Shown in pieces: positions 28,479 to 45,055 of a stretch of 64,000 nt of DNA. Each line of letters begins with the position of its first letter. Position 1 is the first letter of the stretch. This stretch comes from Leisingera sp. ANG-M1 (GTDB lineage Bacteria > Pseudomonadota > Alphaproteobacteria > Rhodobacterales > Rhodobacteraceae). The stretch is from positions 124,001-188,000 of the forward strand of contig NZ_JWLC01000007.1 of assembly GCF_000813745.1 (NCBI RefSeq), in the 5' to 3' direction. A program made the position numbers and the translations under genes. The notes below the pieces were generated by a model. The model did not search any database. It was not told the origin of the DNA and was given only the letters and a program-made list of their open reading frames with translations.

Positions 28479-28490
28479 ATAATATATTAT
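28479..28490. promoter_or_regulatory. GntR-type operator copy 1, upstream of the aldehyde dehydrogenase
   Basis: ATAATATATTAT is a perfect 12-base palindrome followed at once by ATATTATC, a further partial copy. The same palindrome occurs at 39979-39990 and 40276-40287. TTGCTG at 28465-28470 could be the -35 element, with the -10 inside the palindrome, so binding would block RNA polymerase. It lies 37 bases before the aldehyde dehydrogenase start. Confidence 0.7.
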
Positions 28491-28526
28491 ATATTATCAA
28501 GATCAAACCACACTCAGGACTTTCCC

Positions 28527-29954
28527 ATGGCCCAGAACTGCGCGCCCTTCGTCAGCGGCGAATGGCTCTCCGAAACAAACCGCGAAACCCGGGACAACCT
28601 GTCGCCTGCAACCGGCGCGCCGGTTGGCACCATGGTCTGCGCCACTGCAGAAGACGCGCGGGCCGCGGCAGATGCGGCAGCCAAGGCTTTTCCTGTTTGG
28701 TCCGCTCTGGCTCCCCAGCAACGGGCGCGGATGCTGGGTACCATTGCGCAGCGCGTTCAGGAGGCGCATGAAGAGCTCTCGCGCCTGATCACCACCGAGC
28801 AGGGCAAGCCGCTGGCGGAAGCGCGGATGGAGATGGACGGGGTGATCGAAATGTTCGAACATTTCGCCTCGGTCGCCGAGACCATGCCGTTCCGCTATGA
28901 GCGCCCCGACAAGGGCACCAACCGCACCATCGACATGATCCCGGCCGGGCCTGTGATCATCATCACCACCTGGAACTTCCCGGTCGAAACTGCAGCCGTG
29001 CATCTGGCCCCGGCGCTGGCAGCCGGCTGCACCGCTGTGGTGATCGCCAACAACTCCACCCCTGCCTCGGTGGCCCGGCTGATCGGCCTGATGCATGAGG
29101 CCGGTCTGCCGGAGGGCGCGGTGAACCTCTTGATGGGCTCTTCGGCCATGCTGTCGGAAACCCTGATCAAGCACCCCGCCACCCGGCATCTTTCCTACAC
29201 CGGCTCGGTCCGGGTGGGCCGCCAGCTGGCGGCGCAATGCGGCGCAGAGATCATGCGCTGCACGCTGGAGCTGGGCGGCAATGCGCCCGCCATCGTGCTG
29301 CCCGGCGCGGACGTGGAGGCAGCCGCCAAGGCGCTGATTTCCAAACGTTTCTGGAACGCGGGCCAAGTCTGCACCGCGCCCAACCGGATCTTTGTGAACC
29401 GCGCCCAGCATGATGCCTTTGCCGAGGCCGCAGGCGCCTATGTGCGCAATTTGGTGCTGGGAGACGGGCTGCAAGACGCGACGACCATGGGACCGCTGGC
29501 CACCACCGAGCGCGTCGCCTCAATGCAGCGGATTGCCGAGGATGCCCTGGCCAAGGGTGCAACCGCCATCGTGAATGACTCCGCTCCGCAGGAGGGAGGC
29601 AACTGGGTGTCGCCCAAGGTCTTTGCCAATGTGCCTTGGGACGCTCTAGGCCTGCGTGAAGAGATCTTTGGCCCGATTGCCTGCATCACCCCCTATGACG
29701 ACCTGGAAGCGGTGATTGCCGAGGTCAACAACTGCGAGCTGGCGCTGTCGGGCTATGTCTACGGCCCCGATCAGGCTGAAGCCGAAGCCGTTGGCGCCCG
29801 GCTGCAGGTCGGCAGCGTTGCGGTGAACCAGCTGACCACGGCCTATATCGACGTGCCCTTTGGCGGCATCAAGCAGAGCGGGCTGGGCTGCGTCGGCGGC
29901 GAAGCGGCGGTGCAGGAGTATCTCTTCCCGCGGCTGACGGCGGCTGCGCAATAG
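28527..29954 (+). CDS. NAD(P)-dependent aldehyde dehydrogenase (succinate-semialdehyde dehydrogenase-like)
   Basis: A 475-residue enzyme. It has the NAD fold with TTWNFPVETAAVHLAPALAAG near residue 152, the catalytic Glu in LELGGNAPAIVL (near 250) and the catalytic Cys in NAGQVCTAPNRIF (near 285). It oxidises a short aldehyde, possibly a semialdehyde, to the acid. ATG 28527 follows AGGA; the 63 upstream codons of the open frame contain the operator and are not coding. It stands alone but shares the ATAATATATTAT operator with the two divergent operons at 40 kb, so it probably oxidises an aldehyde formed by the GMC dehydrogenase or aminotransferase of that regulon. Confidence 0.92.
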   Translation: MAQNCAPFVSGEWLSETNRETRDNLSPATGAPVGTMVCATAEDARAAADAAAKAFPVWSALAPQQRARMLGTIAQRVQEAHEELSRLITTEQGKPLAEARMEMDGVIEMFEHFASVAETMPFRYERPDKGTNRTIDMIPAGPVIIITTWNFPVETAAVHLAPALAAGCTAVVIANNSTPASVARLIGLMHEAGLPEGAVNLLMGSSAMLSETLIKHPATRHLSYTGSVRVGRQLAAQCGAEIMRCTLELGGNAPAIVLPGADVEAAAKALISKRFWNAGQVCTAPNRIFVNRAQHDAFAEAAGAYVRNLVLGDGLQDATTMGPLATTERVASMQRIAEDALAKGATAIVNDSAPQEGGNWVSPKVFANVPWDALGLREEIFGPIACITPYDDLEAVIAEVNNCELALSGYVYGPDQAEAEAVGARLQVGSVAVNQLTTAYIDVPFGGIKQSGLGCVGGEAAVQEYLFPRLTAAAQ

Positions 29955-29977
29955 GCCGGAAACTCCCCCGACTGGAA

Positions 29978-30007
29978 AGGGTGCCCAACCGGGCGCCCTC
30001 TTTTTTT
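29978..30007 (+). terminator. Rho-independent terminator of the aldehyde dehydrogenase gene
   Basis: AGGGTGCCC (29978-29986) pairs with GGGCGCCCT (29991-29999), with one G-T wobble and a 4-base loop, followed by CTTTTTTT. It lies 24 bases after the stop. Confidence 0.9.
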
Positions 30008-30040
30008 GCCTAACGCTGTGATCTGATAAACTGAACCGCC

Positions 30041-30118
30041 CGGCTGATAGGCCGGGCAGCGCCCGCCCCTCCCCACAGGAAGGCGCTTCACGCCCACCCA
30101 GGGTCGGGCGCTGCCCTC
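30041..30118. repeat. Palindromic intergenic repeat, copy A
   Basis: About 78 bases long. Terminal arms are GGGCAGCGCCCGCCCCT (30054-30070) and AGGGTCGGGCGCTGCCC (30100-30116), one mismatch in 17, enclosing CCCACA.GAAGGCGCTT.ACG.CCCACCC. It is a near copy, in inverted orientation, of 55955-56033, including the flank GATAGGCCGGGCAGCG. It looks like a REP/MITE-type element. It lies between the convergent aldehyde dehydrogenase and GMC genes. Confidence 0.8.
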
Positions 30119-30146
30119 AACAAATTAACCGACACAGCTGAGCACT

Positions 30147-31790
30147 CTAGCGCTGGGAGGTTTCCCAGTTCGGATCGCTGTAATAGGGCAGGTTCGACGG
30201 CGGCAACGGGTCCTTGCCCGCGATCATATCGGCCGCCTTCTCGCCAATCATCATCGACGGGCAGTTGAGGTTGGCCGAGGGGATAATGGGCATCACCGAG
30301 GCATCCGCCACCCGCAGGCCTTCGATGCCATGCACCCGGCATTCCGGGTCGACCACTGCCATCGGATCAGTCCCCATCTTGCAGGTGCCGCAGGGGTGAT
30401 ACGAGGAATGGCAGGTTTCACGCAGCCAGGCTTCAAGATCCGCATCGCTTTCGACTTTTGAGCCGGGGAAGATCTCCTTGCCGGTAAAGGCCGCCAGCGA
30501 CGGCTGCTGCACCAGTTCCCGGCTGAGGCGGAAGCCTGCCTTCAGTTCTTCCACATCCTCTGGATGCTCCAGCATGTTGTAGCGGATGCGCGGCGCGGCA
30601 AAGGGATCGTTTGACGCCAGCCGCACATAGCCGCGGCTTTGCGGGCGCTGGTTGGCGAATTGCAGCTGGAACGCGTGTTCCTTGACGAAATCCGCCGACC
30701 CCTCGGCCACCGCAATCTGGAACAGCGCGATCTGCAGGTTGGGGAAGCGCACACCTGCCTTGGTCCGCACAAAACCCACCGCATCGAAGTGGTTATTGGC
30801 CAGCAGCCCCTTGCGGGTCAGAAGCCAGTCCAGCACACCCTTCGCCTGCGAGAACAGGTTCAGATGCTTGTAGAGCGTTACCGGCTGGGTACAGGCCACC
30901 TGCAGCGAGGTCAGCGGGTGGTCCATCAGGTTCTCGCCTACACCCGGAAGGTCGTGCAGCACTTCAATCCCCTGCCCGCGCAGCTGTCCCGCGGGGCCGA
31001 TGCCGGAATGCATCAGGATCATCGGGCTGTTGAAGGCGCCCGCCGACAGGATCACCTCGCGGTTGGCCTTGACCGTCGCCTCCTGACCGTTCTGCACCAT
31101 CCGCAGGCCGGTGGCTTTGCGCCCCTCCATCACGATGTTGCGCACATGGCAGCCGGTCTCGATGGTCAGGTTGGCAGGCGGATTGCGCAGATAGCAGTGC
31201 GCGGTCGAGGAGCGGCGGCCGTCGGCGACGTTCTTGGGCAACAGGCCAAAGCCATCCTGCTGGCCGCCGTTCACATCATCGGTGCGCAGGTATCCCGCTT
31301 CGCTGCCCGCCTGCAGGAAGGCCTGGGTCAGCGGGTTGTCCGCCCCCATCGTCGAGGCGCGGATCCTGCCTTCGCCCCCGCGGTAGCCGCTGGCGCCGTC
31401 CACCCTTGTCTCCAGCCTTTTGAAGTAAGGCAGCACATCGGCATAGGACCAGCCGCGCGCGCCCGCCTCTGCCCAACCCTCGTAATCCATCGGATGTCCG
31501 CGCAGATACAGCTGGCCGTTGATCGAACTTGAGCCGCCCAGAACCTTGCCGCGCGGCTGCACCAGCACCCGGTTGTTCAGGAACGGTTCCGGCTCGGTCT
31601 CGTAGTTCCAGTTGTACTTCGGAGCGTTGTAGGCATAGCGCATCGCCGCCGGGACATGGAACAAGGGGCTGTTGTCCCTCGGCCCCGCCTCCAGCAGCAG
31701 GACAGAGACCGAGGGGTCTTCCGCAAGGCGTGCAGCAATGATGGCGCCGGCACTGCCGGCTCCCACCACGACATAGTCGCAGGTCTTCAT
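30147..31790 (-). CDS. GMC-family dehydrogenase, choline dehydrogenase (BetA)-like
   Basis: A 547-residue flavoenzyme. FAD motif GAGSAG is at residues 9-14, GMC signature 1 ([17 protein letters not shown]) near 80, signature 2 (GAFNSPMILMHSGIGP) near 255, and the active-site His in SYHPCGTCKMG near 465 with NLNCPSMMIGEKA after it. The C-terminal PNWETSQR resembles the BetA tail. It oxidises an alcohol, possibly choline-like or a hydroxylated intermediate. It is the last gene of the ten-gene minus-strand operon, 27 bases after gntR, and may supply the aldehyde for the ALDH at 28.5 kb. It is a different subfamily member from the GMC protein at 5963. Confidence 0.9.
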   Translation of the reverse strand: MKTCDYVVVGAGSAGAIIAARLAEDPSVSVLLLEAGPRDNSPLFHVPAAMRYAYNAPKYNWNYETEPEPFLNNRVLVQPRGKVLGGSSSINGQLYLRGHPMDYEGWAEAGARGWSYADVLPYFKRLETRVDGASGYRGGEGRIRASTMGADNPLTQAFLQAGSEAGYLRTDDVNGGQQDGFGLLPKNVADGRRSSTAHCYLRNPPANLTIETGCHVRNIVMEGRKATGLRMVQNGQEATVKANREVILSAGAFNSPMILMHSGIGPAGQLRGQGIEVLHDLPGVGENLMDHPLTSLQVACTQPVTLYKHLNLFSQAKGVLDWLLTRKGLLANNHFDAVGFVRTKAGVRFPNLQIALFQIAVAEGSADFVKEHAFQLQFANQRPQSRGYVRLASNDPFAAPRIRYNMLEHPEDVEELKAGFRLSRELVQQPSLAAFTGKEIFPGSKVESDADLEAWLRETCHSSYHPCGTCKMGTDPMAVVDPECRVHGIEGLRVADASVMPIIPSANLNCPSMMIGEKAADMIAGKDPLPPSNLPYYSDPNWETSQR

Positions 31791-31817
31791 CTGTTGTCTT
31801 CCCTGTTGAGGGCTGGA

Positions 31818-32519
31818 TCAGCCCTTGGTCGCTTGCGCAGCGGAGCCGCCCGCAGCCGGGCCCGCCTCCACCGCTTGACTCAGCTCGTGCCTGGCACGCA
31901 CCGTGGCGTGATCGATATGGCGGGTCATCAGCACCACCGCCTTTTCCACATTGGCCACCCGGACCGCGTCCAGGATCGCCTCATGCTCGAAATTGTGCTT
32001 GCCGATCAGGCCGCCATGATCGACCACCCGGAACTGGGTGATGCGGGCGATGCCGTCATACTGGTCCCCGATGATCGCCAGCGAGCGCTTCATGATCGAC
32101 GGCTCCAGCAGCGACAGGTGGAACTGCCGGTTCAGCTCCACCTTCTCCCACAGATCGGTGGAGCGCTCGTCCTGTTCGATCAGCGTCTGGCAGGCGGCAA
32201 TGGTCGCCTCGGTGTGGCGCGGCACCGCGTCGGCCAGCACGATGGGTTCCAGAGCGCCGCGGATCTGGTTCATCTCGATCAGCTCGCGCTCGTTCATCTT
32301 GGCGATGATCGGGCTGCGCCGCGGCCGCAGCTCCACCAGGCTTTCCGCCGCCAGCATCCGGATCGCCTCACGCAGGGGCACGATGGAGATGTCCATCTCC
32401 TTGGCCAGCGGCATGATCTTCAGCTCTTCCCCGGCCTTCAGTTCGCCTGCAATGATCTGCTGCTTCAGCACTTCATAGATCGCCTTGGGGCCATCACCGT
32501 AGTTGAGGATGTTCTTCAT
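31818..32519 (-). CDS. GntR-family (FadR/FCD) transcriptional regulator of the catabolic regulon
   Basis: A 233-residue protein. The winged HTH covers ~10-75 (YEVLKQQIIAGELKAGEELK, DISIVPLREAIRMLAAE). The all-helical FCD domain has the metal-site pattern NRQFHLSLL near 130, a His near 180 (FEHEAILDAV) and MTRHIDHA near 204. It binds a small carboxylate or amino acid with a metal ion. It lies within the ten-gene operon between amidase and GMC genes, so it is probably autoregulated. The perfect palindrome ATAATATATTAT near three promoters is the best candidate for its operator, as GntR/FCD proteins bind short AT-rich palindromes. Confidence 0.9.
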   Translation of the reverse strand: MKNILNYGDGPKAIYEVLKQQIIAGELKAGEELKIMPLAKEMDISIVPLREAIRMLAAESLVELRPRRSPIIAKMNERELIEMNQIRGALEPIVLADAVPRHTEATIAACQTLIEQDERSTDLWEKVELNRQFHLSLLEPSIMKRSLAIIGDQYDGIARITQFRVVDHGGLIGKHNFEHEAILDAVRVANVEKAVVLMTRHIDHATVRARHELSQAVEAGPAAGGSAAQATKG

Positions 32520-32531
32520 GATCCACCGTAC

Positions 32532-33929
32532 CTATTCGTCACATTCCAGGCGGCTAAAGGCCTCGGCCGCCGCCAGGACCTTATGGTCCTGCCCCAAAGC
32601 GCCAATCAGCTGAATACCAAGCGGCAGGCCGGAAGGCAGCCCCCCGATTGGCATCACATGCACGGGCAGATAGCACAGGCTGCCCAGCATTTGCAGCATA
32701 TGCTGCTTGAGTATGGGTTCTTCGCACCCGTTCACCACCACCGTCCGTGCGGTGGGATCGCAATCTGGGCGCAGGGGCGCAGCTGCCCCGGCTGCCGCCG
32801 GGCAGAGCAGCAGGTCGTAGTCCGCAAAGAACCCCTCCAGCTTGCGGCACAGCTGCAGACGTTCCTCGTGCAGCACCAGCCAATCGCGGTGGCTCAGCGT
32901 ATTGCCGCGAGCATTGAGCGCCGCGTATGCACCCTGCGGAGCATCTGCCCCCTGCCGGGCGCGGAACTCTGCCGCCAGCTCCGACTTGCGCGCGGTTTCG
33001 GCCCGCACCAGCAGGTTCATCAGCTCGGTCGCGCGGGTGAAATCGATATCCGGCGCAGTTTCTGTGACGTCAGCGCCAGCAGAGCGCAGCCGGTTGGCGA
33101 AGGTTGCAATGACTGTGCGATAGCTGTCGTCCATCGGGCAGCCAGGCAAATCAGGCAGCAGCGCAATCCGCAGCCCTTCCACCCCCACCGCATCAGTATT
33201 GGCATCGCCGCTGAGAACCCCATAGGCCAGCGCTGCATCCCGCGCCGAACGCGCCAGCGGCCCTGCTGCGCCGATATCCGGCTCCCGCAGCTCACCCAAG
33301 GGGCTGTGGCCGCGCAGCGAAATCCGCCCCCAGCTCGGCTTCAGCCCATGCACCCCGCAGTTATGCGCCGGCAGGCGGATCGAGCCGCCTTGGTCGCTGC
33401 CGATGTCGATGTAGGACATGCCCGAAGCCACCGCCGCTGCCGACCCGCCCGAGGAACCGCCGGCGCTGCGCTCCGGATCATGCGGGTTGCGGGTGGCGCC
33501 GAACAGCGGGTTGGCAGTCTCCCAATCAGACAGGTATGGCGGGATGTTCGTCTTGCCCAGGATCACCGCCCCAGCCCGTTTCAGCGCCGCCACCACGGCG
33601 GAGTCCTCCGCGGCAATATCACCCGCCCGCGCCGGATCGCCCCAGGTAGTGGGGTGCCCCTGCCAGTCGAAACACTCCTTCACCGTCACCGGCACCCCGT
33701 GCAGCGGCCCGATGGGAGCCGCCGCGGCATCGCAGGCCTCAGCCGCCGCACGCGCCCCGGCCCGGTCCTGATAGACCACCGCATTCAACGCACCGTTTAC
33801 CCGGTCGATGGCCGCGAAACAGCCCTCCAGCGCTGCGCGCGCGGAAACCGCCCCCTGCGCCAGCGCCTGACGCAGCGCAACCGCATCGGGCCACACGCCC
33901 TCCGGCAGAGGATACCGCACCGCCACCAT
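32532..33929 (-). CDS. Amidase-signature-family hydrolase
   Basis: A 465-residue amidase. The Ser-cisSer-Lys triad is visible: Lys84 (VTVKECFDW), a Ser in GGSSGGSAAAVASG (~160) and Ser183 in GSDQGGSIRLP. It hydrolyses a C-N amide bond, releasing ammonia or an amine; the exact amide is unknown. It lies two bases from the ABC ATPase gene and 12 from gntR, inside the operon. It may open or deamidate the imported compound. Confusion with GatA is unlikely given the context and the divergent C-terminus. Confidence 0.9.
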   Translation of the reverse strand: MVAVRYPLPEGVWPDAVALRQALAQGAVSARAALEGCFAAIDRVNGALNAVVYQDRAGARAAAEACDAAAAPIGPLHGVPVTVKECFDWQGHPTTWGDPARAGDIAAEDSAVVAALKRAGAVILGKTNIPPYLSDWETANPLFGATRNPHDPERSAGGSSGGSAAAVASGMSYIDIGSDQGGSIRLPAHNCGVHGLKPSWGRISLRGHSPLGELREPDIGAAGPLARSARDAALAYGVLSGDANTDAVGVEGLRIALLPDLPGCPMDDSYRTVIATFANRLRSAGADVTETAPDIDFTRATELMNLLVRAETARKSELAAEFRARQGADAPQGAYAALNARGNTLSHRDWLVLHEERLQLCRKLEGFFADYDLLLCPAAAGAAAPLRPDCDPTARTVVVNGCEEPILKQHMLQMLGSLCYLPVHVMPIGGLPSGLPLGIQLIGALGQDHKVLAAAEAFSRLECDE

Positions 33930-33931
33930 GC

Positions 33932-34708
33932 TCAGCCTGCCTCCAGCACCTTGGACAGGAACTGCTGCAGCCGCGCGTTCTGCGGGTTGTCGAACAATTG
34001 GTCCGGCGCCCCCTGCTCAACCATGCGGCCGCCGTCAAAGAAGCACACCCGGTCAGACACTTCTTTGGCAAAACCCATCTGATGGGTGACCAGCAGGATG
34101 GTGTAGCGGCCTGATTTGGCCAGATCGCGGATCACCTCCAGCACCTCGCCTACCATCTCCGGGTCCAAGGCCGAGGTCGGCTCGTCAAACAGCAGCACTT
34201 CCGGGTGCATCGCCAGGGTGCGGGCAATCGCCACCCGCTGCTGCTGGCCGCCTGACAGCTGGCTGGGGTAATGGCCTGCCTTGTCGGCCAGCCCGACCAT
34301 GGTCAGCAGCCGCATTGCCTCTTCGGTCGCCTCGGCCTTCGACTGGCCCAAAGTATGCACCGGCGCCTCGATGCAGTTCTCCAGCGCCGTCATATGCGGG
34401 AACAGGTTGAAGTTCTGGAACACCATGCCGATTTTCGAGCGGATCCGGCGCACATGTGCCTTGCTGGCATCCACCAGCACACCGTTCTTCTGCATCCGGT
34501 TCAGCGGCTCGCCGTCGACATACATGGTGCCGTCCTGGATACCCTCCAGCGTCATCAGCACCCGCAGCACCGTGGTCTTGCCCGAGCCGGAGGGCCCGAT
34601 GATCGAGACCACCTCGCCCTTGCCGACGCTGAAATCGAGATCCTTCAGAACCTGCAGCGCGCCATAGGCCTTCAGCACCTTGTCGAATTGGATCATGGGA
34701 TGGGTCAA
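33932..34708 (-). CDS. Polar amino-acid-type ABC transporter ATP-binding protein (EhuA/GlnQ-like)
   Basis: A 258-residue ATPase. Walker A is GPSGSGKTT near residue 40, the signature LSGGQQQR near 153, Walker [15 protein letters not shown] near 175 and the switch His in LLVTHQMGF. It energises the two permeases encoded directly upstream; its start overlaps the first by four bases. It matches the PAAT group that includes EhuA of ectoine uptake, which fits the rest of the cluster. Confidence 0.92.
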   Translation of the reverse strand: MTHPMIQFDKVLKAYGALQVLKDLDFSVGKGEVVSIIGPSGSGKTTVLRVLMTLEGIQDGTMYVDGEPLNRMQKNGVLVDASKAHVRRIRSKIGMVFQNFNLFPHMTALENCIEAPVHTLGQSKAEATEEAMRLLTMVGLADKAGHYPSQLSGGQQQRVAIARTLAMHPEVLLFDEPTSALDPEMVGEVLEVIRDLAKSGRYTILLVTHQMGFAKEVSDRVCFFDGGRMVEQGAPDQLFDNPQNARLQQFLSKVLEAG

Positions 34709-35370
34709 TGCAGGATGCTCCTCTTGACGTAATTCTCAACCAGGCGGATCAGGAAGGCGGCGATCAGGCTCATCACCAGGAAGAAGATCCCGGCAATGGT
34801 GACGGCTTCGGTAAAGCGGTAGTATTCCGCGCCGATCAGCTTGGAGATTTGCATGATTTCCGCTACCGCCACGAAAGACAGCAGCGGCGTTTCCTTGAAG
34901 ATCGCCACCAGGTAATTGCCCAGCGCAGGCACGATCGGCGGCAGCGATTGCGGGATGATCACATCCCGGAAGGTGCGGTAGGTCGACAGGTTCAGCGCAA
35001 TGCAGGCCTCCCACTGGCCTTTGGGCACGGCCTGAAACCCGGCCCGGTAGACCTCGGCGCACAGAGCCGAATTGTAGATGCCGATGGCCAGAATGCCGGT
35101 GGTCAGCGGCGGCAGGGTGATGCCGAAATCGGGCAGCAGGAAAAACAGAAAGAAAATCTGCACCAAGAGGGGCGTGGCCCGGATGAACTCGATGAACTCA
35201 GTGGCCGGCCTGCTGATCCAGGGTGAGCGGTGCGTCTTCAGCAGCATCAGGATCAGACCGCCGATCAGCGCCAGCACAAAGCTCGCAACCGTAGCCCAGA
35301 CGGTGACGCCTGCCGCTTCCCACATCTTGGGCAGCACCACATCGAATGTGAAATCCCATCTCCAGTCCAT
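34705..35370 (-). CDS. Polar amino-acid-type ABC transporter permease
   Basis: A 221-residue inner-membrane protein with five predicted helices. The PAAT pattern is visible: FIRATPLLVQIFFLFFLLPDFG, EVYRAGFQAVPKGQWEA and a C-terminal helix ending LVENYVKR. It forms the pore with the permease at 35374-36096, resembling the EhuC/EhuD pair. It is separated from that gene by three bases and overlaps the ATPase gene by four. Confidence 0.92.
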   Translation of the reverse strand: MDWRWDFTFDVVLPKMWEAAGVTVWATVASFVLALIGGLILMLLKTHRSPWISRPATEFIEFIRATPLLVQIFFLFFLLPDFGITLPPLTTGILAIGIYNSALCAEVYRAGFQAVPKGQWEACIALNLSTYRTFRDVIIPQSLPPIVPALGNYLVAIFKETPLLSFVAVAEIMQISKLIGAEYYRFTEAVTIAGIFFLVMSLIAAFLIRLVENYVKRSILH

Positions 35371-35373
35371 GGC

Positions 35374-36096
35374 TCAGACCCTCTTGCTCAGGTGGCGGGA
35401 GAAGCGCTCTTCCAATGCGTCACCGCCAAAGCGCACGAACTGGGCAAAGCAGTAATACAGCATCAGCGTGATCGCGAAGATCTCCACGGTGCGGAAATGC
35501 AGCTGGTTCTGCTGCACGCTGGCGTAGGTGATATCGACCAATGTAACGGCCGAGACCAGCGCGGTGGCCTTGATCAGCTCGATGGTGAGGTTGACCATGC
35601 CGGGGATCATGATGGCGATAGCCTGCGGCAGGATGATCCGAGTCATCCGGTTCCAGGGCGAGATGTTGAGTGCAATAGTTGCCTCGGTCTGGCCGCGCGG
35701 CACTGCGCCGATGGCACCGCGGGCAATCTCAGCACCATAGGCGCCGAAGTTCAGCCCGATGCCCAAAACACCCGCCAGCACCGGCGACATGGTGAGGCCG
35801 AACTCAGGCATCACGAAGAACAGCCAGAACAGGATCACCAGCAGCGAGGTGCCGCGGAAGACCTCGATATAGCCGACCGCCAGCCACAGCACCGCGCCCG
35901 AAGCCTTGGCCCGGGCAACACCGGCAATCAGCGACATAGCCATGAAGACAAGCCAGGACAGCACCGAAATCTGAACCGTCACCACCGCGCCCCTCAGGAT
36001 CGCAGGCAGAAACATCTTCAGCTCGGCAAAAGTCGCCACCGACAAGCCTGCCAAAAAGGCGGCCAAGCCAATGACAATGGCAATTCTTGGTACCAT
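35374..36096 (-). CDS. Polar amino-acid-type ABC transporter permease
   Basis: A 240-residue permease. The N-terminal helix is IAIVIGLAAFLAGLSVATFA; the HisM/GlnP pattern follows: VFRGTSLLVILFWLFFVMPEFG, EIARGAIGAVPRGQTEATIA and a C-terminal helix. It is the second pore subunit of the EhuCD-like pair. It follows the second binding protein after a 61-base gap containing a hairpin. Confidence 0.92.
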   Translation of the reverse strand: MVPRIAIVIGLAAFLAGLSVATFAELKMFLPAILRGAVVTVQISVLSWLVFMAMSLIAGVARAKASGAVLWLAVGYIEVFRGTSLLVILFWLFFVMPEFGLTMSPVLAGVLGIGLNFGAYGAEIARGAIGAVPRGQTEATIALNISPWNRMTRIILPQAIAIMIPGMVNLTIELIKATALVSAVTLVDITYASVQQNQLHFRTVEIFAITLMLYYCFAQFVRFGGDALEERFSRHLSKRV

Positions 36097-37856: not shown

Positions 37857-38711
37857 TTAGCCTTTGCAAAGATCGGCGGTGCTGCGCGACGGCAGCTCGC
37901 TGGGCTGCAGCCCATGCGCTTCCATGATCTTCAGGTGTTCCGGCGTGCCGATGAACGCGGCCAGCTTGGCGTTGAACGCCGCGACAAAAGCCGCTTCATC
38001 CGGGCGCACCGCATAGGCGCCATGCGGGCTGGCGGGTTTGCCATCCACCTCGGCAAAAGGCTGCAGCATTTCAAATTCGCCGCCGTCATTGCTGGCCACT
38101 GCCAGCCGGGCACCCGGCGCATCGATGGCAAAGGCATCCGCCCGGCCCGCGCGCACGGCCGCTAGCCCGGTCGGGGTATCCGGCACCTGCATGATGCTGG
38201 CCTCTTGGACGCCAACACTCTTTGCCCAGTCAACCTGTGCGGTGCCAGAGATCGCTGCCATGGTCACGCCCGCCTCGCGCACGCTTTCGTATTCGGTCAG
38301 GCCAGAGGGGTTGCCGTTTTTCACCACCAGCGCCTGCTGTATGCCGAACGTCGGCTCGGAAAACGCCACTTCGTTGCAGCGCTTGGGGGTGACGAACATC
38401 GCGGCCGCCACGATATCGAACCGGTCCGCCTTCAGCCCCGGGATCAGGTTGCCCCATTCGGTCGAGGTCTCAGAGGCGATGCTCAGGCCCATTTCGCCCA
38501 GCACATGGCGCAGGATTTCCACCTGCTCGCCGATCACCTTGCCCTCGCCATCGACATAGGCGAAGGGGGCAAAGTTGTAATAGGCGACGCGCAGGCCATC
38601 CGCCTTGCCGCGGTCTTCCAGCGTCTCGGCCGTGCCCATCGCGGGCACTCCGGCAAATGCAGCAGCCGCCACTGTCTTGAGCAGTGTCCGGCGCAATCCG
38701 TTGAATTTCAT
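37857..38711 (-). CDS. Polar amino-acid ABC transporter substrate-binding protein (EhuB-like), paralogue 1
   Basis: A 284-residue periplasmic receptor. It has an N-terminal signal (MKFNGLRRTLLKTVAAAAFAG, cleavage near the GTA of AMGTAE) and then the SBP_bac_3 pattern LRVAYYNFAPFAYVDGEGK, FVTPKRCNEVAFSEPTFGIQ and NPSGLTEYESVREAG. It shares most blocks with the receptor at 36158-37015, so the pair arose by duplication, and the racemase-family gene now lies between them. I trimmed the start to ATG 38711, because the upstream part is polar and lacks a signal. Confidence 0.9.
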   Translation of the reverse strand: MKFNGLRRTLLKTVAAAAFAGVPAMGTAETLEDRGKADGLRVAYYNFAPFAYVDGEGKVIGEQVEILRHVLGEMGLSIASETSTEWGNLIPGLKADRFDIVAAAMFVTPKRCNEVAFSEPTFGIQQALVVKNGNPSGLTEYESVREAGVTMAAISGTAQVDWAKSVGVQEASIMQVPDTPTGLAAVRAGRADAFAIDAPGARLAVASNDGGEFEMLQPFAEVDGKPASPHGAYAVRPDEAAFVAAFNAKLAAFIGTPEHLKIMEAHGLQPSELPSRSTADLCKG

Positions 38712-38772
38712 TGTTTCCTCCCTTGGTGCGGCGCCACGGGTCTCCCCGTGACGCCAATGGTTCGCATCCGCA

Positions 38773-39936
38773 TCAAGCTTCGATGACCGGGATCTCCCAT
38801 TCGGCAACCGGCGCCGACAGCAGGTCCGGCTCGCCTTCCGTCACCGCCCAGTTATCCTCGGCGTTGATGAAGCCCAGCTCGTTCGAGAAATTCGGGTTGC
38901 AGGCAAAGACGTTGCCAACCTCGAAGGTGATATCCTCAAACGCCGCCAGCGACGGGTATTCGGTGGTCTCGATGCCGACGCCGTGGCCGACCCGGCCGAC
39001 GCCCATGGTCTTGAGCCCGCGCTCGGACAGGTATTTGTCGACCACCTCGATCACATGCGCCGGGGTGTTGCCCGCGGTCAGCTGCATGTTGCAGTCATGG
39101 CGCAGCTGCATGGCCCAGGTGTAGAATTCACTAAGCGCATCCGAGGGTTTGCCGATGGAGGCGGTCCGCGCCAGGTCGGACCAGTAGCCCTTGTAGCTGA
39201 CGCCCACATCGAAGCCGAGGGTCTCACCCTTCTGGATCACCCGGTCGGTCGGCAGCAGCACAATGCCCTTTTCATTGGCACCGGACAGCACGCACAGCAG
39301 CGAGATCTTCTCAGCTCCGTTGGCAATCAGGTTCTGACGCAGGATCTGGGCGACCTCGTTTTCGGTCATGCCCGCGCGCACCTCCTGGAAGGTCTTCTTC
39401 TGCGCTTCGGCAGAAATGATCGAGGCGCGGCGCAGGTATTCGATTTCCTGCGGCGACTTCACGTTGCGCACCTTCAGGATGATGTCGGCGGCGTCGATGA
39501 AGTCTGCCTCCGGCAGGCCCTTCATCACTTCCTGCAGGCCCAGGTAGGAAATGCCCAGATACTGCTCGCGGCCCAGTTCGGCGCCGATGCGGGCTTTGCT
39601 GAGGCCCAGATCCTTCAGCACGCCGATGATGAACTCGGGATGGCCCATCAGCCCGCCGGTGGTGCGGATGTCGGTGATGAAGGAGGTCTGCTCCACCTGC
39701 GCAACTTCGAACGGCATGGTGATCAGGGTCGGGTCGCCATCCTTGGGCAGAATGAACATGTAGGAGCGGATCTTGTCCACGGCGCACTGCTCGGAGCGGT
39801 GGCCGGTGTAATACTGATAGTTCAGCCGTTCGGTGATCAGCATGGCGTCGAGGTTTTTCTCGGCCATCAGCGCACGGGTTTTGGCGTAGCGCGCTTCGAA
39901 CTCTTCTTTGGTGAAATCTGCGTATGGGGCTGTCAT
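38773..39936 (-). CDS. M24 pita-bread-fold hydrolase (Xaa-Pro peptidase/creatinase/EutD-like)
   Basis: A 387-residue protein. The creatinase N-domain spans ~10-150 and the M24 catalytic domain ~160-375. Metal ligands aligned by eye are Asp243 (GFDVG), Asp254 (WSDLAR), His318 (VGHGVG) and Glu360 (NAEDNW). The ligand Glu of the usual EPG motif is Asn347 (ACNPNF), so metal binding may be reduced or lost, as in creatinase and ectoine hydrolase (DoeA/EutD), which are non-peptidase members. It probably cleaves a C-N bond in a small guanidino, amidine or imide substrate. It is the first gene of the ten-gene operon, 43 bases downstream of an ATAATATATTAT operator. Confidence 0.83.
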   Translation of the reverse strand: MTAPYADFTKEEFEARYAKTRALMAEKNLDAMLITERLNYQYYTGHRSEQCAVDKIRSYMFILPKDGDPTLITMPFEVAQVEQTSFITDIRTTGGLMGHPEFIIGVLKDLGLSKARIGAELGREQYLGISYLGLQEVMKGLPEADFIDAADIILKVRNVKSPQEIEYLRRASIISAEAQKKTFQEVRAGMTENEVAQILRQNLIANGAEKISLLCVLSGANEKGIVLLPTDRVIQKGETLGFDVGVSYKGYWSDLARTASIGKPSDALSEFYTWAMQLRHDCNMQLTAGNTPAHVIEVVDKYLSERGLKTMGVGRVGHGVGIETTEYPSLAAFEDITFEVGNVFACNPNFSNELGFINAEDNWAVTEGEPDLLSAPVAEWEIPVIEA

Positions 39937-39971
39937 GTCGTACCTTACACGAGCTGTGTTTGCGTGCCGCC

Positions 39972-39990
39972 ATACTAGATAATATATTAT
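39972..39990. promoter_or_regulatory. GntR-type operator copy 2, upstream of the M24/ABC operon
   Basis: ATACTAGATAATATATTAT, containing the 12-base palindrome at 39979-39990. The same 19 bases recur at 40269-40287 in the same orientation. On the minus strand TTGCCC could serve as a -35 with the palindrome covering the -10 region, 43 bases before the M24 start. Confidence 0.75.
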
Positions 39991-40268
39991 TCAGGGCAAG
40001 AAATTTCTGCAAATTGAGCAGAAGCAGTATCCGCAATGGGGTAATTGCCCAAGAAAACAGGGCCTCTCAGCGCGCACCCTCCTCAGCCGCGCAATCTGCC
40101 GAAACAGGCGGCGCCCCGAAGAATCACAGGATCGAACCTGCAATCCGGCAAGGCTGATTCTCAAAACGGCATCCCGGCGGAAGCGGCAGGTGAACTGCCG
40201 CCCGGCCTTGCTGCGCAGGGCCAATCCGGCGCTTTTACGCGGGCTGTCACAACGCTTGACGCCACTTG
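39991..40268. other. Central part of the divergent intergenic region
   Basis: No gene is recognised here. It separates the two operator copies (297 bases apart). At its right end TTGACG (40256-40261) is a convincing -35 for the plus-strand operon, with the -10 inside the palindrome (TATATT, 40280-40285, 18-base spacing). Confidence 0.5.
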
Positions 40269-40288
40269 ATACTAGATAATATATTATC
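40269..40288. promoter_or_regulatory. GntR-type operator copy 3, upstream of the cyclodeaminase operon
   Basis: It holds the same 19 bases as copy 2 plus C, so GATAATATATTATC (40275-40288) is a perfect 14-base palindrome. It overlaps the predicted -10 element and ends 30 bases before the TTG start at 40319, an ideal place for repression. Confidence 0.8.
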
Positions 40289-40318
40289 CAGCAAAACCGG
40301 CAGCGGGAGGATAGCCAG

Positions 40319-41248
40319 TTGAAACTCTTCACCGACAGCGACATGCAGGCCGCCCTGCCCTGGGAGGCGCTGATTTCCGAACTGAAGGAGGCCTTTGCCA
40401 AAGGCGTCTCGCAGCCCCTGCGCACTGCGCATGCGGTGCCGGTGCCGGGCGAGCCGGATGCCTCCTTCCTGGCGATGCCCGCCTGGGAGGAAGGCGGCAA
40501 GCTGGCGGTGAAGATCTTGTTCATCGCCCCCGGAAACTCGGCCCGCAACCTGCCCGCAGTGAACGCCAGCGTGATGGTCTTCGACGCGGTGACCGGCCAG
40601 GCCGAAGCAGTGATGGAAGGCGGCGAGCTGACCGCGCGCCGCACTGCCGCCACCTCTGCCCTCGCCGCAGATCAGATGGCGCGCAAAGATGCAAAATCGC
40701 TGCTGATCGTCGGCGCGGGCACCATCGCAGGAAACCTGATCCCGGCCCACCGCGCAGTTCGCGACTATGAAACGGTCAAGATCTGGGCCCGCCGCCCCGA
40801 GCAGGCCCAGGCGCTGGCCGGTCAGTTCGACGAGGCCGTCACCGTGGCCACCGATCTGGACGCCGCCGTCGCAGAGGCAGATGTGATCGCCGCCGCAACC
40901 ATCACCAACGAGCCGCTGATCAAGGGTGCGCTGCTGAAAGACGGCGCGCATCTGGATCTGGTCGGCGGCTTCACGACTGAGATGCGCGAAGCCGACAGCG
41001 AGGCGCTGAAACGCGCCGCCGGCGGCATCATCGTTGACACCTATGATGGCGCCATGGCCGAGGCCGGCGACATCACCCAGCCGCTTGCTGAGGGCACCAT
41101 CACCCGCGCTGACATCGTGGGCGACATGGCCGAGTTGTGCCGCGGCGAGGCGCAGCCGCGCACCTCGGACAGCCAAATCACCGTTTTCAAATCCGTGGGG
41201 GCCGCGATCGAGGATTTTACCGCCGCCCGCATGGCCGCCGCATCCTGA
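40319..41248 (+). CDS. Ornithine cyclodeaminase / mu-crystallin family protein (EutC-like)
   Basis: A 309-residue enzyme. The N-terminal part shows the OCD pattern (KLAVKILFIAPGN, GGELTARRTAATSALAADQM), then the Rossmann motif VGAGTIAGNL near 140 and LVGGFTTEMREAD near 220. OCD-family proteins act as lyases, imine reductases or amino-acid dehydrogenases; EutC in ectoine clusters belongs here. The start is TTG 40319 with GGGAGG (40305-40310) eight bases upstream. It is the first gene of the five-gene plus-strand operon. Confidence 0.88.
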   Translation: MKLFTDSDMQAALPWEALISELKEAFAKGVSQPLRTAHAVPVPGEPDASFLAMPAWEEGGKLAVKILFIAPGNSARNLPAVNASVMVFDAVTGQAEAVMEGGELTARRTAATSALAADQMARKDAKSLLIVGAGTIAGNLIPAHRAVRDYETVKIWARRPEQAQALAGQFDEAVTVATDLDAAVAEADVIAAATITNEPLIKGALLKDGAHLDLVGGFTTEMREADSEALKRAAGGIIVDTYDGAMAEAGDITQPLAEGTITRADIVGDMAELCRGEAQPRTSDSQITVFKSVGAAIEDFTAARMAAAS

Positions 41249-41265
41249 ACCTGACTGGAAAGACA

Positions 41266-42450
41266 ATGACTGATTTCAGATTCGCCCGCCGCTCTGCCAT
41301 TCTTGGCAAATCGGTGTTTGACCACGCGCCGGGCACCATCGCCCTCAATTCCGGCGCCGCCTACCCGCCCTGCCTGCCCGACGTGGTGCGCGAGGCGACC
41401 GAGGCCGTGGGCCCCCTGCGCGAAGAAGCCATGCAATACGCGCCGCTGATGGGCCTCGACGATCTGCGTGACGAGATCTGCAATTTCGTCGCCGAGGATG
41501 GCATCAAGGCCTCCCGCGAAAACGTGCTGGTCACCTACGGCTCCAAAAGCGCCTTTGATCTTGCCCTGCGCACCTTCTGCGAGGCCGGCGACACCGTGAT
41601 CGTCACCCGCCCGACCTATATGACCGCCGTCCACATCATGCGCACCCACAACGTGCGTTTCCTGGACATCGGCCAGGACGAGGAAGGCTTCTGCGCCGAC
41701 GAGCTGGAAGAAAAGCTGCAGCGGATGGAAAACAACGCCGAGCAGATGCCCAAGCTGCTGTTCGACGTGCCGGACTTCCACAACCCGACCGGCATCACCA
41801 CTTCGCTGGCGCGGCGCAAGAAAATGCTGGCGCTGGCGCAGCGCTATAACTTCGTGATCTGCGAGGACGACCCCTACCGCCGTATCCGCTTTGAGGGCGA
41901 GGTGATCCCCTCGATCAAGTCGATGGACACCACCGGCCATGTGATCAGCCTCGGCACCGTCTCGAAAATCCTCGCCCCCGGCCTGCGTGTCGGCTGGGCC
42001 ATCGGCGATGCCGGCGTGATCCGCCGCATGGCAATGCAAAAGGCCGACGGCGGCTCCAACGCCTTTGCCCAGCGCATCGTGGTGCAGCTGATGCAGTCCA
42101 ACAAGATGGCGCATCACATCGACGAGATGATCCACCAGATGCGCATTCACCGCGATGCGATGATCGAGGCCTTTGCCGAACACATCCCCGAAGCCACCAT
42201 CAAGGCCCCCAAAGGCGGCTATTTCCTTTGGGCGACCCTGCCCGAAGGCACCGATACCGAGCGCCTGGTCGAACTGGGCATTGAGGAAGGCGTCGAGGTC
42301 TCCTCGGGCCGCCTCAGCTTCCCCAATGACGATCCCGGCAACTGCATCCGCATGGCCTACAGCTTCATCACCGTGGACGACATCAAGGACGGCATCGCCA
42401 AACTCGGCGCCGCCTGGCGCAAACTCCAATCCCAAGCTCAAGCGGCATAA
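41266..42450 (+). CDS. PLP-dependent class I/II aminotransferase
   Basis: A 394-residue fold-type I aminotransferase. Seen are the substrate loop YAPLMGLDDLRDEICNF, cofactor residues in YGSKSAFDLALRTF, DVPDFHNPTGITTSLARR near 165, the tyrosine site CEDDPYRR, and the PLP lysine in LGTVSKILAPGLRVGW near 238. It resembles 2-aminoadipate/MocR-type aminotransferases but has no DNA-binding domain. It would transaminate a diamino- or amino-acid intermediate to a semialdehyde or oxo acid. In classical eut clusters a threonine-dehydratase-like EutB sits next to eutC; here this aminotransferase takes that place. GGAAAG precedes ATG 41266. Confidence 0.9.
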   Translation: MTDFRFARRSAILGKSVFDHAPGTIALNSGAAYPPCLPDVVREATEAVGPLREEAMQYAPLMGLDDLRDEICNFVAEDGIKASRENVLVTYGSKSAFDLALRTFCEAGDTVIVTRPTYMTAVHIMRTHNVRFLDIGQDEEGFCADELEEKLQRMENNAEQMPKLLFDVPDFHNPTGITTSLARRKKMLALAQRYNFVICEDDPYRRIRFEGEVIPSIKSMDTTGHVISLGTVSKILAPGLRVGWAIGDAGVIRRMAMQKADGGSNAFAQRIVVQLMQSNKMAHHIDEMIHQMRIHRDAMIEAFAEHIPEATIKAPKGGYFLWATLPEGTDTERLVELGIEEGVEVSSGRLSFPNDDPGNCIRMAYSFITVDDIKDGIAKLGAAWRKLQSQAQAA

Positions 42451-42467
42451 AAAGAAGGAATATTCCC

Positions 42468-43493
42468 ATGCCCTGCCCCAAAGTCTCCCTCGCCCCCAGC
42501 TGCGAGATCGATCTGGACGCCGAAGGCAAACAGCACGGCTACGTGCGCATCCAGTTCTCCTCGGACCGCTCCGCCTACGGCTGGCTGCCGATGCCGATCA
42601 TGTCGATCAAGAACGGCGACGGCCCCGTCGCGGTGGTGATCGGCGCCAACCATGGCGACGAGTACGAAGGCGTGTCGATCTGCAACGGCCTCTACCAGGA
42701 GCTTGAGCCTGAAGACATCAAAGGCCAGATCATCTTCCTGCCCGCGGCCAACGCGCCGGCCTTCTATGCCGGCCGCCGCACCTCGCCGCTCGACTGGACC
42801 GGCGAAGCTAACCTGAACCGGATGTTCCCGGGCAACCAGTACGGCTCCCCGACCGAGATGATCGCCTGGTACATCACCAACCACATCGTGCCGCGCGGCG
42901 ATGCCTTCTTTGACCTGCACTCGGCCGGCAAATCCATCGATCACCACCCCTCGGTCAAAATCCGTCTGATGGGCGACGCCCAAAAAGACGCGATGCAGAT
43001 GAAATTCCTGGAACTCTTCGGCGCGCCCCTGGGCATCGTCGGCGACCGGGTGCATGAGACCACCCTGTCGGGCGAGATCCTGCCGCAAGACAAAATCTAC
43101 CTGTCGACCGAACTGGGCGGCGCCGGCAAGATCCGCCCGTGGATCCGCGAATTCGGCTTCAACGGCATGAAGCGCTGCATGCGGGAAATGGGCCTCTTCG
43201 TCAAAGACGAGCACCTGCCCGAGCCTGAGCACAAGGTTGCGCTCAAGGCGATGCAGACCGGCGACCACTACATCTTTGCAGGCAAGGACGGCATGTTCGA
43301 GCCGGTTGTCAATCTGGGCGACGTGGTCGAAGACGGCCAGCTGGCCGGCTACATCTGGAACCTGAAAGAGCCATGGGAAAAGCCGGAAGAGCTGCATTTC
43401 AACAAAGGCGGCGTGGTGTTCTGCAAACGCACGCCAGCGCTCTGCGAAATCGGCGATACGCTGTTCTTCACCCTCAGCGATTATGAAGGCTGA
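42468..43493 (+). CDS. AstE/AspA-family deacylase (DoeB/EutE-like N-acyl-diamino-acid deacetylase)
   Basis: A 341-residue zinc hydrolase of the succinylglutamate desuccinylase/aspartoacylase family. Zinc ligands are His62 and Glu65 (ANHGDEYEG) and His151 (DLHSAGK); NLNRMFPG near 116 is the substrate-binding Arg block. The N-terminal DLDAEGKQHGYVRIQFSSD matches the DoeB pattern (N-acetyl-L-2,4-diaminobutyrate deacetylase). It probably removes an acyl group from an N-acyl diamino acid in the cytoplasm. AAGGAA precedes the start. The stop overlaps the next start by 11 bases. Confidence 0.88.
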   Translation: MPCPKVSLAPSCEIDLDAEGKQHGYVRIQFSSDRSAYGWLPMPIMSIKNGDGPVAVVIGANHGDEYEGVSICNGLYQELEPEDIKGQIIFLPAANAPAFYAGRRTSPLDWTGEANLNRMFPGNQYGSPTEMIAWYITNHIVPRGDAFFDLHSAGKSIDHHPSVKIRLMGDAQKDAMQMKFLELFGAPLGIVGDRVHETTLSGEILPQDKIYLSTELGGAGKIRPWIREFGFNGMKRCMREMGLFVKDEHLPEPEHKVALKAMQTGDHYIFAGKDGMFEPVVNLGDVVEDGQLAGYIWNLKEPWEKPEELHFNKGGVVFCKRTPALCEIGDTLFFTLSDYEG

Positions 43494-44559
43494 CCGGAAC
43501 CTCTCTGCACGGCCCCCTGGCTCCATGGGGCCGTGCTCAGCTGGAAGCGCCGGACCTGGCAAAGCCCTTGCGCAGGCGCCCACCCTCTCTCTCCCCCGGG
43601 ACCTGCCGCAAAAGTCCTTTGCGTTCTTCCTTCTGCCCGGCGCTTCCATGCTCAGTTTCAGCTCGGCGATCGAACCCCTTCGGATCGCCAATCAGCTGGC
43701 AGCACAGCCGCTTTATTCCTGGCACACCCTGTCCGAAGACGGCACCAGCGTGACCTGCTCCAACGGCACCGAACTGACGGTCAACGGGCCGCTTTCGAAC
43801 GCGCCCCAGGCGGACTACTCGCTCATCGTGGCAGGTCCTGCGGCGCAAAACGCTGCACAATCTCCCGCCGTCAGCTGGCTGCGGCGCAAGGCGCGGTTCG
43901 GCGGCACGGTGGGGGCCATCTCCGGCGGTACCGGGCTGCTGGCCGAGGCCGGCTTGCTGGCATCCGGCGGTTTCACCCTGCACTGGGAGGACCGGCTGGG
44001 TTTTTGCGAGCATTTCCCCGGGCTGGAACCTCTAGACCAGCTGTTCTGCGCCGACGGCCAGATCCTCACCTGCAGCGGCGGCACCGCAGCGTTGGACCTA
44101 TCGCTGCATCTGATTGCCACCCATCACGGTCAGCGGTTTGCCCGCACAGTGTCGGACATGTGCGTCCATGCCGGCCTGCGCAGCGGAGGGGAGCGGCCGC
44201 AAAGCTCGCTCTCTTATGTGCTTGGCAGCCGCAGCCCGCATCTGGTGAAGGCCGCAGGCATCATGGCCGAAAACCTGGAGGACCCCCTGCCGCTGCAGGA
44301 GATCGCTCACCGCGCCGCCATCTCGCGCCGCCACATGGAACGCCTGTTCAGCACCCACACCGGCCGCACGCCTGCGCATTACTACCGCGACCTGCGGCTG
44401 GAGCGCGGCCGCAAGCTGCTGAGTGAGACCGACTACAGGCTTCCCGTTATCTCGGCCGCCTGCGGTTTTTCGAGCCCCACTGTCTTTGCCCGCAACTTCA
44501 AAAGGAAATTCGGCATTGCTCCTGTTGAATACCAATCCCGCAGGCCCCGCCGCGCCTGA
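43483..44559 (+). CDS. GlxA-type AraC regulator (DJ-1/PfpI + AraC HTH)
   Basis: A protein of up to 358 residues. A DJ-1-like domain (FFLLPGASMLSFSSAIEPLR, VGAISGGTGLLAEAGLL, without a nucleophilic Cys) is followed by two AraC HTHs (LQEIAHRAAISRRHMERLF, LPVISAACGFSSPTVFARNF). The start is uncertain: ATG 43483 overlaps the deacylase stop, and the first ~35 residues are low-complexity and may be untranslated; ATG 43525 is an alternative. It is co-transcribed with catabolic genes, so the regulon may have two-layer control: GntR repression and GlxA activation. Confidence 0.85.
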   Translation: MKADRNLSARPPGSMGPCSAGSAGPGKALAQAPTLSLPRDLPQKSFAFFLLPGASMLSFSSAIEPLRIANQLAAQPLYSWHTLSEDGTSVTCSNGTELTVNGPLSNAPQADYSLIVAGPAAQNAAQSPAVSWLRRKARFGGTVGAISGGTGLLAEAGLLASGGFTLHWEDRLGFCEHFPGLEPLDQLFCADGQILTCSGGTAALDLSLHLIATHHGQRFARTVSDMCVHAGLRSGGERPQSSLSYVLGSRSPHLVKAAGIMAENLEDPLPLQEIAHRAAISRRHMERLFSTHTGRTPAHYYRDLRLERGRKLLSETDYRLPVISAACGFSSPTVFARNFKRKFGIAPVEYQSRRPRRA

Positions 44560-45055
44560 GATTTTCGCCCCCTGCCCAGCCCGGCCAGTAATCACGCTCA
44601 ACCCGGATGGTTTTGACGATTGGCCCTGCCTGCTGGGGCTCTTGCGCCATGCCTTTGCCCATACTGTCGGCAAAGTCGACCCGCCCAGCACGGTCTACGC
44701 CTGCACCGCTGCCGACCTGGCGCAGCGGGCAAAGCGCGAGCACTTGATGGTCGCCGCAGACGGCATCCGGCTGGCAGGCTGCCTGTTTCTGAAGGAGACC
44801 GGCCACGAGCTGTTCCTGGGCCGCTTTGCCATCCGCAACGAATACAAAGGCGGTGGCTTGGCCCGCCGGATGATCAGGCACGCAGCCGAATTGGCCCGCC
44901 AGCGCGGCAAGTCCACGCTGGTGCTGGAAACCCGCACCGCCCTGACCGGAAATCAGGCCAAATTCCGTGCTCTGGGGTTTCAGATCACCGGCGGCCGGGC
45001 CCACGCCGGATACCAGGGGATCACCACCTTCCGGATGGCACGCCGGGTGGATTGA
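44516..45055 (+). CDS. GNAT-family N-acetyltransferase
   Basis: A protein of about 179 residues. The acetyl-CoA motif is LGRFAIRNEYKGGGLARRMIRHA, then a LVLETRTALTGNQAKFRALGFQ end typical of GNAT. I propose TTG 44516 as start, since AAAGGAA (44501-44507) lies eight bases before it; this overlaps the regulator by 44 bases. Longer readings to 44423 remain possible. As the last gene of the plus-strand operon it may acetylate a diamino intermediate, the reverse of the deacylase chemistry, or detoxify it. That is inference. Confidence 0.82.
   Translation: MLLLNTNPAGPAAPEIFAPCPARPVITLNPDGFDDWPCLLGLLRHAFAHTVGKVDPPSTVYACTAADLAQRAKREHLMVAADGIRLAGCLFLKETGHELFLGRFAIRNEYKGGGLARRMIRHAAELARQRGKSTLVLETRTALTGNQAKFRALGFQITGGRAHAGYQGITTFRMARRVD

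Follow-up and report, generated by a model that had tools for sequence, protein, structure and literature searches.

The 64,000-nucleotide stretch of Leisingera sp. ANG-M1 analysed here (hereafter, the window; C66:124001-188000 of our own genome G000, which has 5.37 Mb in 91 contigs) holds an island of catabolic genes at positions 28479-45055. On balance, we favour the reading that this island is a catabolic regulon for a zwitterion other than ectoine, most likely a betaine-like carboxylate that is perhaps N-acylated. A preliminary description of the DNA had proposed a substrate related to ectoine yet distinct from it, and this is supported, as neither of the outcomes that it had named as refuting was observed: the M24 hydrolase of the island scored far below the DoeA cut-offs, its DoeB-like deacylase fell outside the canonical DoeB clade, and a real eut/doe cluster exists elsewhere in the genome.

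All 16 genes of the island were found in place, as a ten-gene run on the minus strand, a divergent five-gene run on the plus strand and an aldehyde dehydrogenase (ALDH) gene. Listed by increasing position, the minus-strand run reads GMC-GntR-amidase-ATPase-permease-permease-SBP1-EutA-like-SBP2-M24 (SBP, solute-binding protein), and its intergenic gaps range from -4 to 61 bp. The plus-strand run is OCD-aminotransferase-DoeB-like-GlxA-GNAT, with gaps of 17, 17, -11 and -137 bp when the chosen starts are used. The ALDH gene (28527..29954, +; Pfam Aldedh) lies in an open reading frame (ORF) that opens at a first TTG at 28338, and the ATG at 28527 is most likely its start. The gene order recurred in relatives and the palindrome ATAATATATTAT appeared in 0/100 shuffles of the window, indicating that the island is more than a chance assembly.

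To the base, the left edge given in the preliminary description (28479) is the start of this palindrome, which went unmentioned there. An exact-copy search found ATAATATATTAT exactly three times in the genome, at 28479, 39979 and 40276, upstream of the ALDH, M24 and OCD units, and its reversed sequence had no copy. The copy ahead of ALDH spans 28479..28490. The two central copies lie within longer operator-like sites, which are ATACTAGATAATATATTATTCAG for the M24 operon (39972..39994) and ATACTAGATAATATATTATCCAG for the OCD operon (40269..40291); they are identical at 22 of the 23 surrounding bases. Ten genomes, hand-picked among the closer relatives, were searched in the same way. Nine of them held a total of 12 exact copies (G595 had none), all assigned to island promoters; by position, nine lie within the island stretches and the remaining three at an ALDH gene beyond them. 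A copy stands directly ahead of ALDH in G073, G589, G591 and G587, and the reversed control gave one copy across the ten genomes, in G589. A looser form of the box was present in 20 of 24 stretches (window included), mostly at the starts of M24, aminotransferase, ALDH or GMC genes. In distant relatives and in a second cluster of our own genome (contig C9), the box takes a related palindromic form (around ATATATSATATAT or TCATATATGA) and precedes M24, aminotransferase or GMC, and ATATATSATATAT, searched in seven genomes, was found at five places in four of them, by position all at M24/aminotransferase/GMC-type sites. The three transcription units thus look like one regulon, and the placing of the box is near-exclusive to the island. 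Its natural candidate regulator is the GntR/FCD protein (31818..32519, -; Pfam GntR and FCD; gene found in 21 of 26 loci), which would control the three units via the palindrome TAATATATTA. The assignment to the FCD type rather than the MocR type was correct, and the real ectoine cluster carries an EhuR-type MocR regulator.

To place the island among relatives, we searched 390 genomes of the order with the aminotransferase at E <= 1e-120; only our own genome matched (none of the same-genus genomes G238, G413 and G501 did), so a contig scan seeded by two short peptide patterns, by which relatives may be missed, was used to supply them. Of 25 scanned loci, L068 was dropped (20% identity, a Flavobacteriaceae record), and L067 was kept (45%) and scored as a miss for every gene except the aminotransferase. 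The 24 loci together with G073 and the C9 paralogue gave 26, compared at identity thresholds that we set ourselves; G014 was omitted as it shares a contig with L059. Because contig ends or the 10 kb flank truncate some loci, the counts are lower bounds. The aminotransferase was counted in all 26 loci (in 24 by construction), M24 in 23, the DoeB-like deacylase in 23, GntR in 21 and GMC in 18; the importer genes numbered 18 for permease A, 17 for SBP1, 17 for permease B, 15 for the ATPase and 5 for SBP2. The remaining counts were EutA-like in 9 loci, OCD and amidase in 7 each, GlxA and GNAT in 6 each, ALDH in 4 and a choline-sulfatase-type gene in 3. The amidase and GNAT genes, which had been described as additions to an ectoine-type set, are indeed present, yet they turned out to be accessory, as are OCD, GlxA and the EutA-like gene (6-9 of the 26 loci each).

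The module is rare, with the DoeB-like protein at >=68% identity in 3 of 295 genomes of the family. Its core is kept across Alpha- and Gammaproteobacteria, which points to horizontal spread. Among named relatives the closest match is to Leisingera sp. ANG-Vp (aminotransferase 98%, DoeB-like protein 100%), which we take to come from a squid gland, and the Ruegeria HKCCD strains presumably come from corals. Six of the 24 relatives carry metagenome-assembled genome (MAG) prefixes IRC, RHO, COS, STY or APA, from which no enrichment is claimed. These prefixes would match sponge species, as they fit those sampled in PMC8163846.

The importer is Ehu-type by score. Its ATPase (33932..34708, -) reached 389 bits with the EhuA model TIGR03005 (cut-off 345) and one permease (34705..35370, -) 259 bits with the EhuD model TIGR03003 (cut-off 205), and both receptors passed the EhuB model TIGR02995 (cut-off 191), SBP1 (36158..37015, -) with 202 bits and SBP2 (37857..38711, -) with 214 bits. 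The second permease (35374..36096, -), EhuC-like, was assigned by similarity and synteny alone. The predicted structure of SBP1 was nearest to EhuB 2q88 in a Foldseek search. Seven ectoine-pocket residues were defined for a Paenibacillus EhuB (PMC6915088). Their spacing of 3-36-20-5-48-1 matches 2q88 exactly (residues 22, 25, 61, 81, 86, 134 and 135), and EhuB and two canonical EhuB proteins (Ensifer, Shinella) carry E,F,Y,F,R,T,E at these positions. Every one of the 22 island receptor rows carries F,(Y/F),W,F,R,A,Q instead; among these rows, G014 and L059 represent a single gene, and both L044 rows are near-copies of those of the window. The carboxylate-binding Arg is therefore kept, both acids that hold ectoine are replaced and a fourth aromatic residue is gained.

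The two receptors differ at one further position. We compared them with E. coli ArgT through the LAO site residues and Asp161, which presumably holds the alpha-amine; the 12 residues used are all consistent with the ArgT sequence, and the titles of LAO mutant structures name D11, F52, S69, S70, S72 and Q122. The Asp161 position is Ser in 17/17 SBP1-type rows and Asp in 5/5 SBP2-type rows, which suggests that the receptors may serve two ligands, one without and one with a free alpha-amine.

The M24 protein (38773..39936, -; Pfam M24, creatinase/prolidase fold) scored 96-98 bits with the DoeA models, whose cut-offs are 575-613, and was nearer in sequence to prolidase-type chains than to DoeA (98.6 vs 55 bits). 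M24 metallopeptidases of the prolidase and aminopeptidase P type share five metal ligands, D-D-H-E-E. At the corresponding residues (D243, D254, H318, N347 and E360) the island proteins read D-D-H-N-E in 25/25 rows, Asn replacing the prolidase Glu in alignments to 2zsg, 3q6d and 1pv9, and all 25 rows also have Thr where the HE-x-P motif has its His (L059 and L042 being one gene counted twice). By its residues, the protein thus appears to fall outside the five-ligand M24 metallopeptidases. The predicted structure, of low confidence at residues 311-334 around H318, has a TM of ~0.75-0.85 to prolidase-type chains and DoeA alike (Foldseek) and does not separate the two functions. It also resembles creatinase in the fold search. 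Creatine, carnitine, homarine, trimethyllysine and the sponge imidazolium betaines were considered as the solute, with no diagnostic enzyme seen and no literature match.

The DoeB-like deacylase (42468..43493, +) scored 226 bits with TIGR02994 (cut-off 403). It belongs to PF24827, and a search of our own genome with PF04952 gave no match. In a tree, 24 island rows formed one clade (100/100) and 18 canonical DoeB rows another (100/100). The labels were preset by identity (island, >=60% to the window protein; canonical, >=55% to our own DoeB), so the tree tests the monophyly of groups that are already similar, and it carries a long-branch warning among 16 other rows. Alignment showed invariant motifs common to both groups. 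The EutA-like protein, of the Asp/Glu-racemase superfamily (37043..37801, -; ORF to 37915), scored 189 bits with TIGR02990 (cut-off 318) and keeps both Cys motifs in 9/9 aligned island rows, window included.

A separate ectoine cluster was found on contig C29, with EhuR (604 bits, cut-off 480), EutA (427/318), EutB (557/413), EutC (576/472) and DoeA (812/613), the last matching solved DoeA at 575 bits; the DoeB of our own genome scored 595 bits (cut-off 403). The neighbours of the C29 genes are TRAP-transporter genes, a class-III-type aminotransferase and an SSADH-like ALDH. The presence of this eutABC-doeAB set above the curated cut-offs indicates that the island is not the ectoine pathway of the genome. 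We also searched the genomes of 17 of the 24 relatives for DoeA; 14 of the 17 had a match at E <= 1e-100, and in 6 of the 17 it was above the cut-off. An EutA-family protein is present in the island, if below the cut-off, and EutB is the sole Eut protein without a counterpart, no EutB-family member being found among the island proteins scanned. The proposed replacement of EutB by the aminotransferase is probably a wrong pairing, since a better counterpart is the class-III aminotransferase of the C29 cluster, which would act on diaminobutyrate.

Among the remaining enzymes, the aminotransferase (41266..42450, +) is a class I/II pyridoxal-phosphate enzyme of the 2-aminoadipate/kynurenine/MocR-domain branch by family scans, and it matches solved 2-aminoadipate and kynurenine-type enzymes. 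The GMC oxidoreductase (30147..31790, -) passed PRK02106, the choline-dehydrogenase subfamily model (704 bits, cut-off 605), and fell below the betA equivalog (654 vs 732); its nearest solved chain is 9lq0, a choline dehydrogenase. For ALDH the nearest NCBIfam models are SSADH and BADH, with scores below the cut-off for all of the best 25 of 42 models. The accessory OCD/mu-crystallin-family reductase (40319..41248, +) passed PRK06141, the Delta1-pyrroline/piperideine-2-carboxylate (Pyr2C/Pip2C) reductase model (359 bits vs 322), as did its Roseitalea relative (378 bits), and scored 104 bits against 472 for EutC. The other accessory proteins are the amidase-signature hydrolase (32532..33929, -; Pfam Amidase), the GlxA/GbdR-type AraC regulator (43483..44559, +), with 261.5 bits for the GbdR model (cut-off 480), and the GNAT acetyltransferase (44423..45055, +; Pfam).

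We propose that the Ehu-type importer with its two receptors would take up two related forms of the solute. Inside the cell, the M24 hydrolase would open or cleave it, the DoeB-like zinc deacylase, aided by the amidase, would remove an acyl group, and the aminotransferase would then remove the amine. GMC dehydrogenase and ALDH would oxidise alcohol and aldehyde groups to the carboxylate, and the EutA-like protein and the OCD reductase would serve side-entry steps, found in some relatives alone. The most economical scheme retains the sequence of ectoine breakdown, with hydrolase, deacylase, aminotransferase and ALDH acting in turn on a different solute, plus a GMC step for an alcohol. That these genes make up one pathway is supported by the common box and by Roseitalea, in which OCD-aminotransferase-DoeB-ALDH-GMC form one near-overlapping set. 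The solute would most likely combine a carboxylate with a cationic group that forms no hydrogen bonds, quaternary ammonium or another, and is perhaps N-acylated. We read it as betaine-like because of the receptor pocket, the choline-type GMC, the sub-cut-off GbdR-like regulator and the choline-sulfatase-type gene, which lies between permease and receptor in three relatives (L051, L052 and L053; 575 bits vs 433 in L052). Each of these pointers is suggestive and none is decisive. The preliminary description had named a compatible solute or an N-acyl/cyclic diamino acid; its non-ectoine part was borne out, and a simple diamino acid, whether N-acyl or cyclic, is not favoured, because the pocket lacks both acids that pair with ectoine.

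Several observations weigh against this betaine-like reading. A fully quaternised nitrogen sits uneasily with an OCD reductase that would need a free omega-amine, and ALDH lies inside the stretch in merely 4 of 26 loci (boxes beyond the stretches lead to it in two more relatives, G587 and G591). No M24 gene was found in the stretches examined of L060, L063 and L067. The looser box had no match in L049, L052, L053 and L059, where forms are degenerate, the partial match of L047 (2936) is at no core promoter, and among the seven genomes searched the distant form ATATATSATATAT was absent from our own genome, G600 and G602. Taken alone, an importer that passes the curated Ehu cut-offs would say ectoine. 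Loss of the acids by itself is not special to the island either, as two plasmid EhuB-labelled receptors beside a DoeB-family gene, L073 (Paraburkholderia) and L074 (Rhizobium), also lack them and have other residues there (A,W,F,G,R,A,N and R,W,F,S,R,L,N). On these two receptors, too, the name Ehu seems to be loosely applied. The full aromatic pocket, finally, also suits an aromatic ligand.

This last point leads to a rival that we regard as unlikely, though the strongest of those weighed, in which the solute is an aromatic N-acyl amino acid, e.g., one derived from kynurenine or tyrosine. The pocket, with four aromatics and no acid at the seven positions, would stack the ring, the DoeB-like protein or the amidase would deacylate, and the aminotransferase, with its matches to solved 2-aminoadipate/kynurenine-type enzymes, would follow; the Asp that SBP2 retains at the LAO Asp161 position fits as well. 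However, no ring-cleaving oxygenase was found among the genes with the exact box in our own genome, and the choline-type GMC and the sulfatase of the relatives are left unexplained. We give still less weight to an N-acetyl-diamino acid or a larger ectoine homologue, from which the DoeB-like protein would release ornithine or lysine, the aminotransferase would remove the alpha-amine and, after cyclisation, OCD would yield proline or pipecolate. The adjacent OCD, aminotransferase and DoeB-like genes lie in that order, and OCD passes the Pyr2C/Pip2C reductase cut-off (in Roseitalea likewise), but it was found in just 7 of the 26 loci and the receptors lack an acid at both EhuB positions able to hold a free omega-amine or amidinium.

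A second, redundant pathway for ectoine or hydroxyectoine would account for the EhuA, EhuD and EhuB scores and for M24, DoeB, EutA and OCD families found together. We consider it very improbable, as these four proteins all miss the ectoine equivalog cut-offs, the ectoine-binding acids are gone from every receptor row and the above-cut-off cluster lies elsewhere in the genome. That accessory genes differ among relatives is what one would expect if unrelated catabolic genes had merely gathered here and served no single function. We find this the hardest of all to credit, given one box that joins three units with no further exact copy in the genome and a core kept across two proteobacterial classes.

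With the betaine-like reading preferred, we tentatively raise a wider possibility, which we hold to be rather doubtful: through a so far undescribed pathway, marine bacteria, of which several would come from animal hosts (sponges, corals and squid), may import and degrade an N-acylated or quaternised amino acid or betaine outside the annotated pathways. An M24 enzyme whose metal site is altered would stand in for the ectoine hydrolase, and two receptors would discriminate the N-blocked from the free form. The literature searched, which included the accessible part of PMC13188858 and left most subscription journals and bioRxiv preprints outside, held no description of the module. As the importer passes the automatic Ehu cut-offs, annotation would name an ectoine transporter despite a pocket without the ectoine-binding acids, and we caution against counting loci of this kind when ectoine use is surveyed. 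Being compact and having two receptors that differ at a defined residue, the regulon opens the solute directly to ligand screening. If it is true that the solute is an osmolyte of sponge or coral hosts, the module would be a further nutritional tie between the partners of these symbioses.

Further genes were noted around the island. A choline-sulfatase gene (23838-25373, +) scored 565 bits, above the cut-off of 433, and an enolase-superfamily gene without the exact box (26936-28045, +; cis-3-hydroxy-L-proline dehydratase, 513 vs 500) adjoins the left of the island. Three GbdR/GlxA-type AraC regulators, that of the island included, lie within ~20 kb (25765-26802, 43531-44559 and 45077-46075), all below the GbdR cut-off. 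On the right, a transposase-like ORF, identified by eye, stands beside another amino-acid-type ABC importer (46386-50288, -), and the window genes right of GNAT had no match in the stretch of Leisingera ANG-Vp. In a Hyphomicrobiales MAG (L066:6206-10178), bhcA and bhcB above the cut-off and a truncated bhcC, genes of the beta-hydroxyaspartate cycle, adjoin the core genes; this single locus would suggest glyoxylate as the product.

Another comparison within our own genome is the C9 cluster (L035/L036, ~39-54 kb), whose proteins share 64% (aminotransferase), 78% (DoeB-like), 77% (GMC), 61% (M24), 46-47% (GntR) and 55% (ALDH) identity with those of the island, and whose M24 gene is likewise preceded by the palindromic box, in the changed form TCATATATGA. 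It differs in having another importer as well as FrhB/FdhB-like and Amdase-like proteins, and no OCD was found in the stretch examined. The FrhB/FdhB-like and Amdase-like proteins and another ABC importer are also linked in the gammaproteobacterial loci L055, L056 and L061, and the receptor pocket of this importer differs again, reading mostly S,F/M,W,F,R,A,D.

Among known systems, the annotated ehuABCD-eutABC-doeAB clusters of Ensifer (L071) and Shinella (L072) share with the island an Ehu-type importer and M24, DoeB-, EutA- and OCD-family proteins. The C29 ectoine cluster, which has a TRAP transporter, shares these four families along with an aminotransferase and an ALDH, and the order of chemistry of the ectoine clusters can be written likewise for the island. 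Unlike them, the island lacks EutB, has M24, DoeB-like, EutA-like and OCD proteins that are all under the ectoine equivalog cut-offs, uses a class-I/II instead of a class-III aminotransferase and a GntR/FCD instead of a MocR regulator, adds GMC, and shows a changed receptor pocket and M24 active site. The bet pathway converts choline-O-sulfate to choline and then to glycine betaine via choline sulfatase, BetA and BetB. The island resembles it in its GMC of the choline-dehydrogenase subfamily, its ALDH and the choline-sulfatase-type gene inside the operons of three relatives. It differs in that the island genes include no TetR/BetI-type regulator, the GMC is under the betA equivalog cut-off, and the bet pathway has no known step for a deacylase, an M24 enzyme or an aminotransferase.

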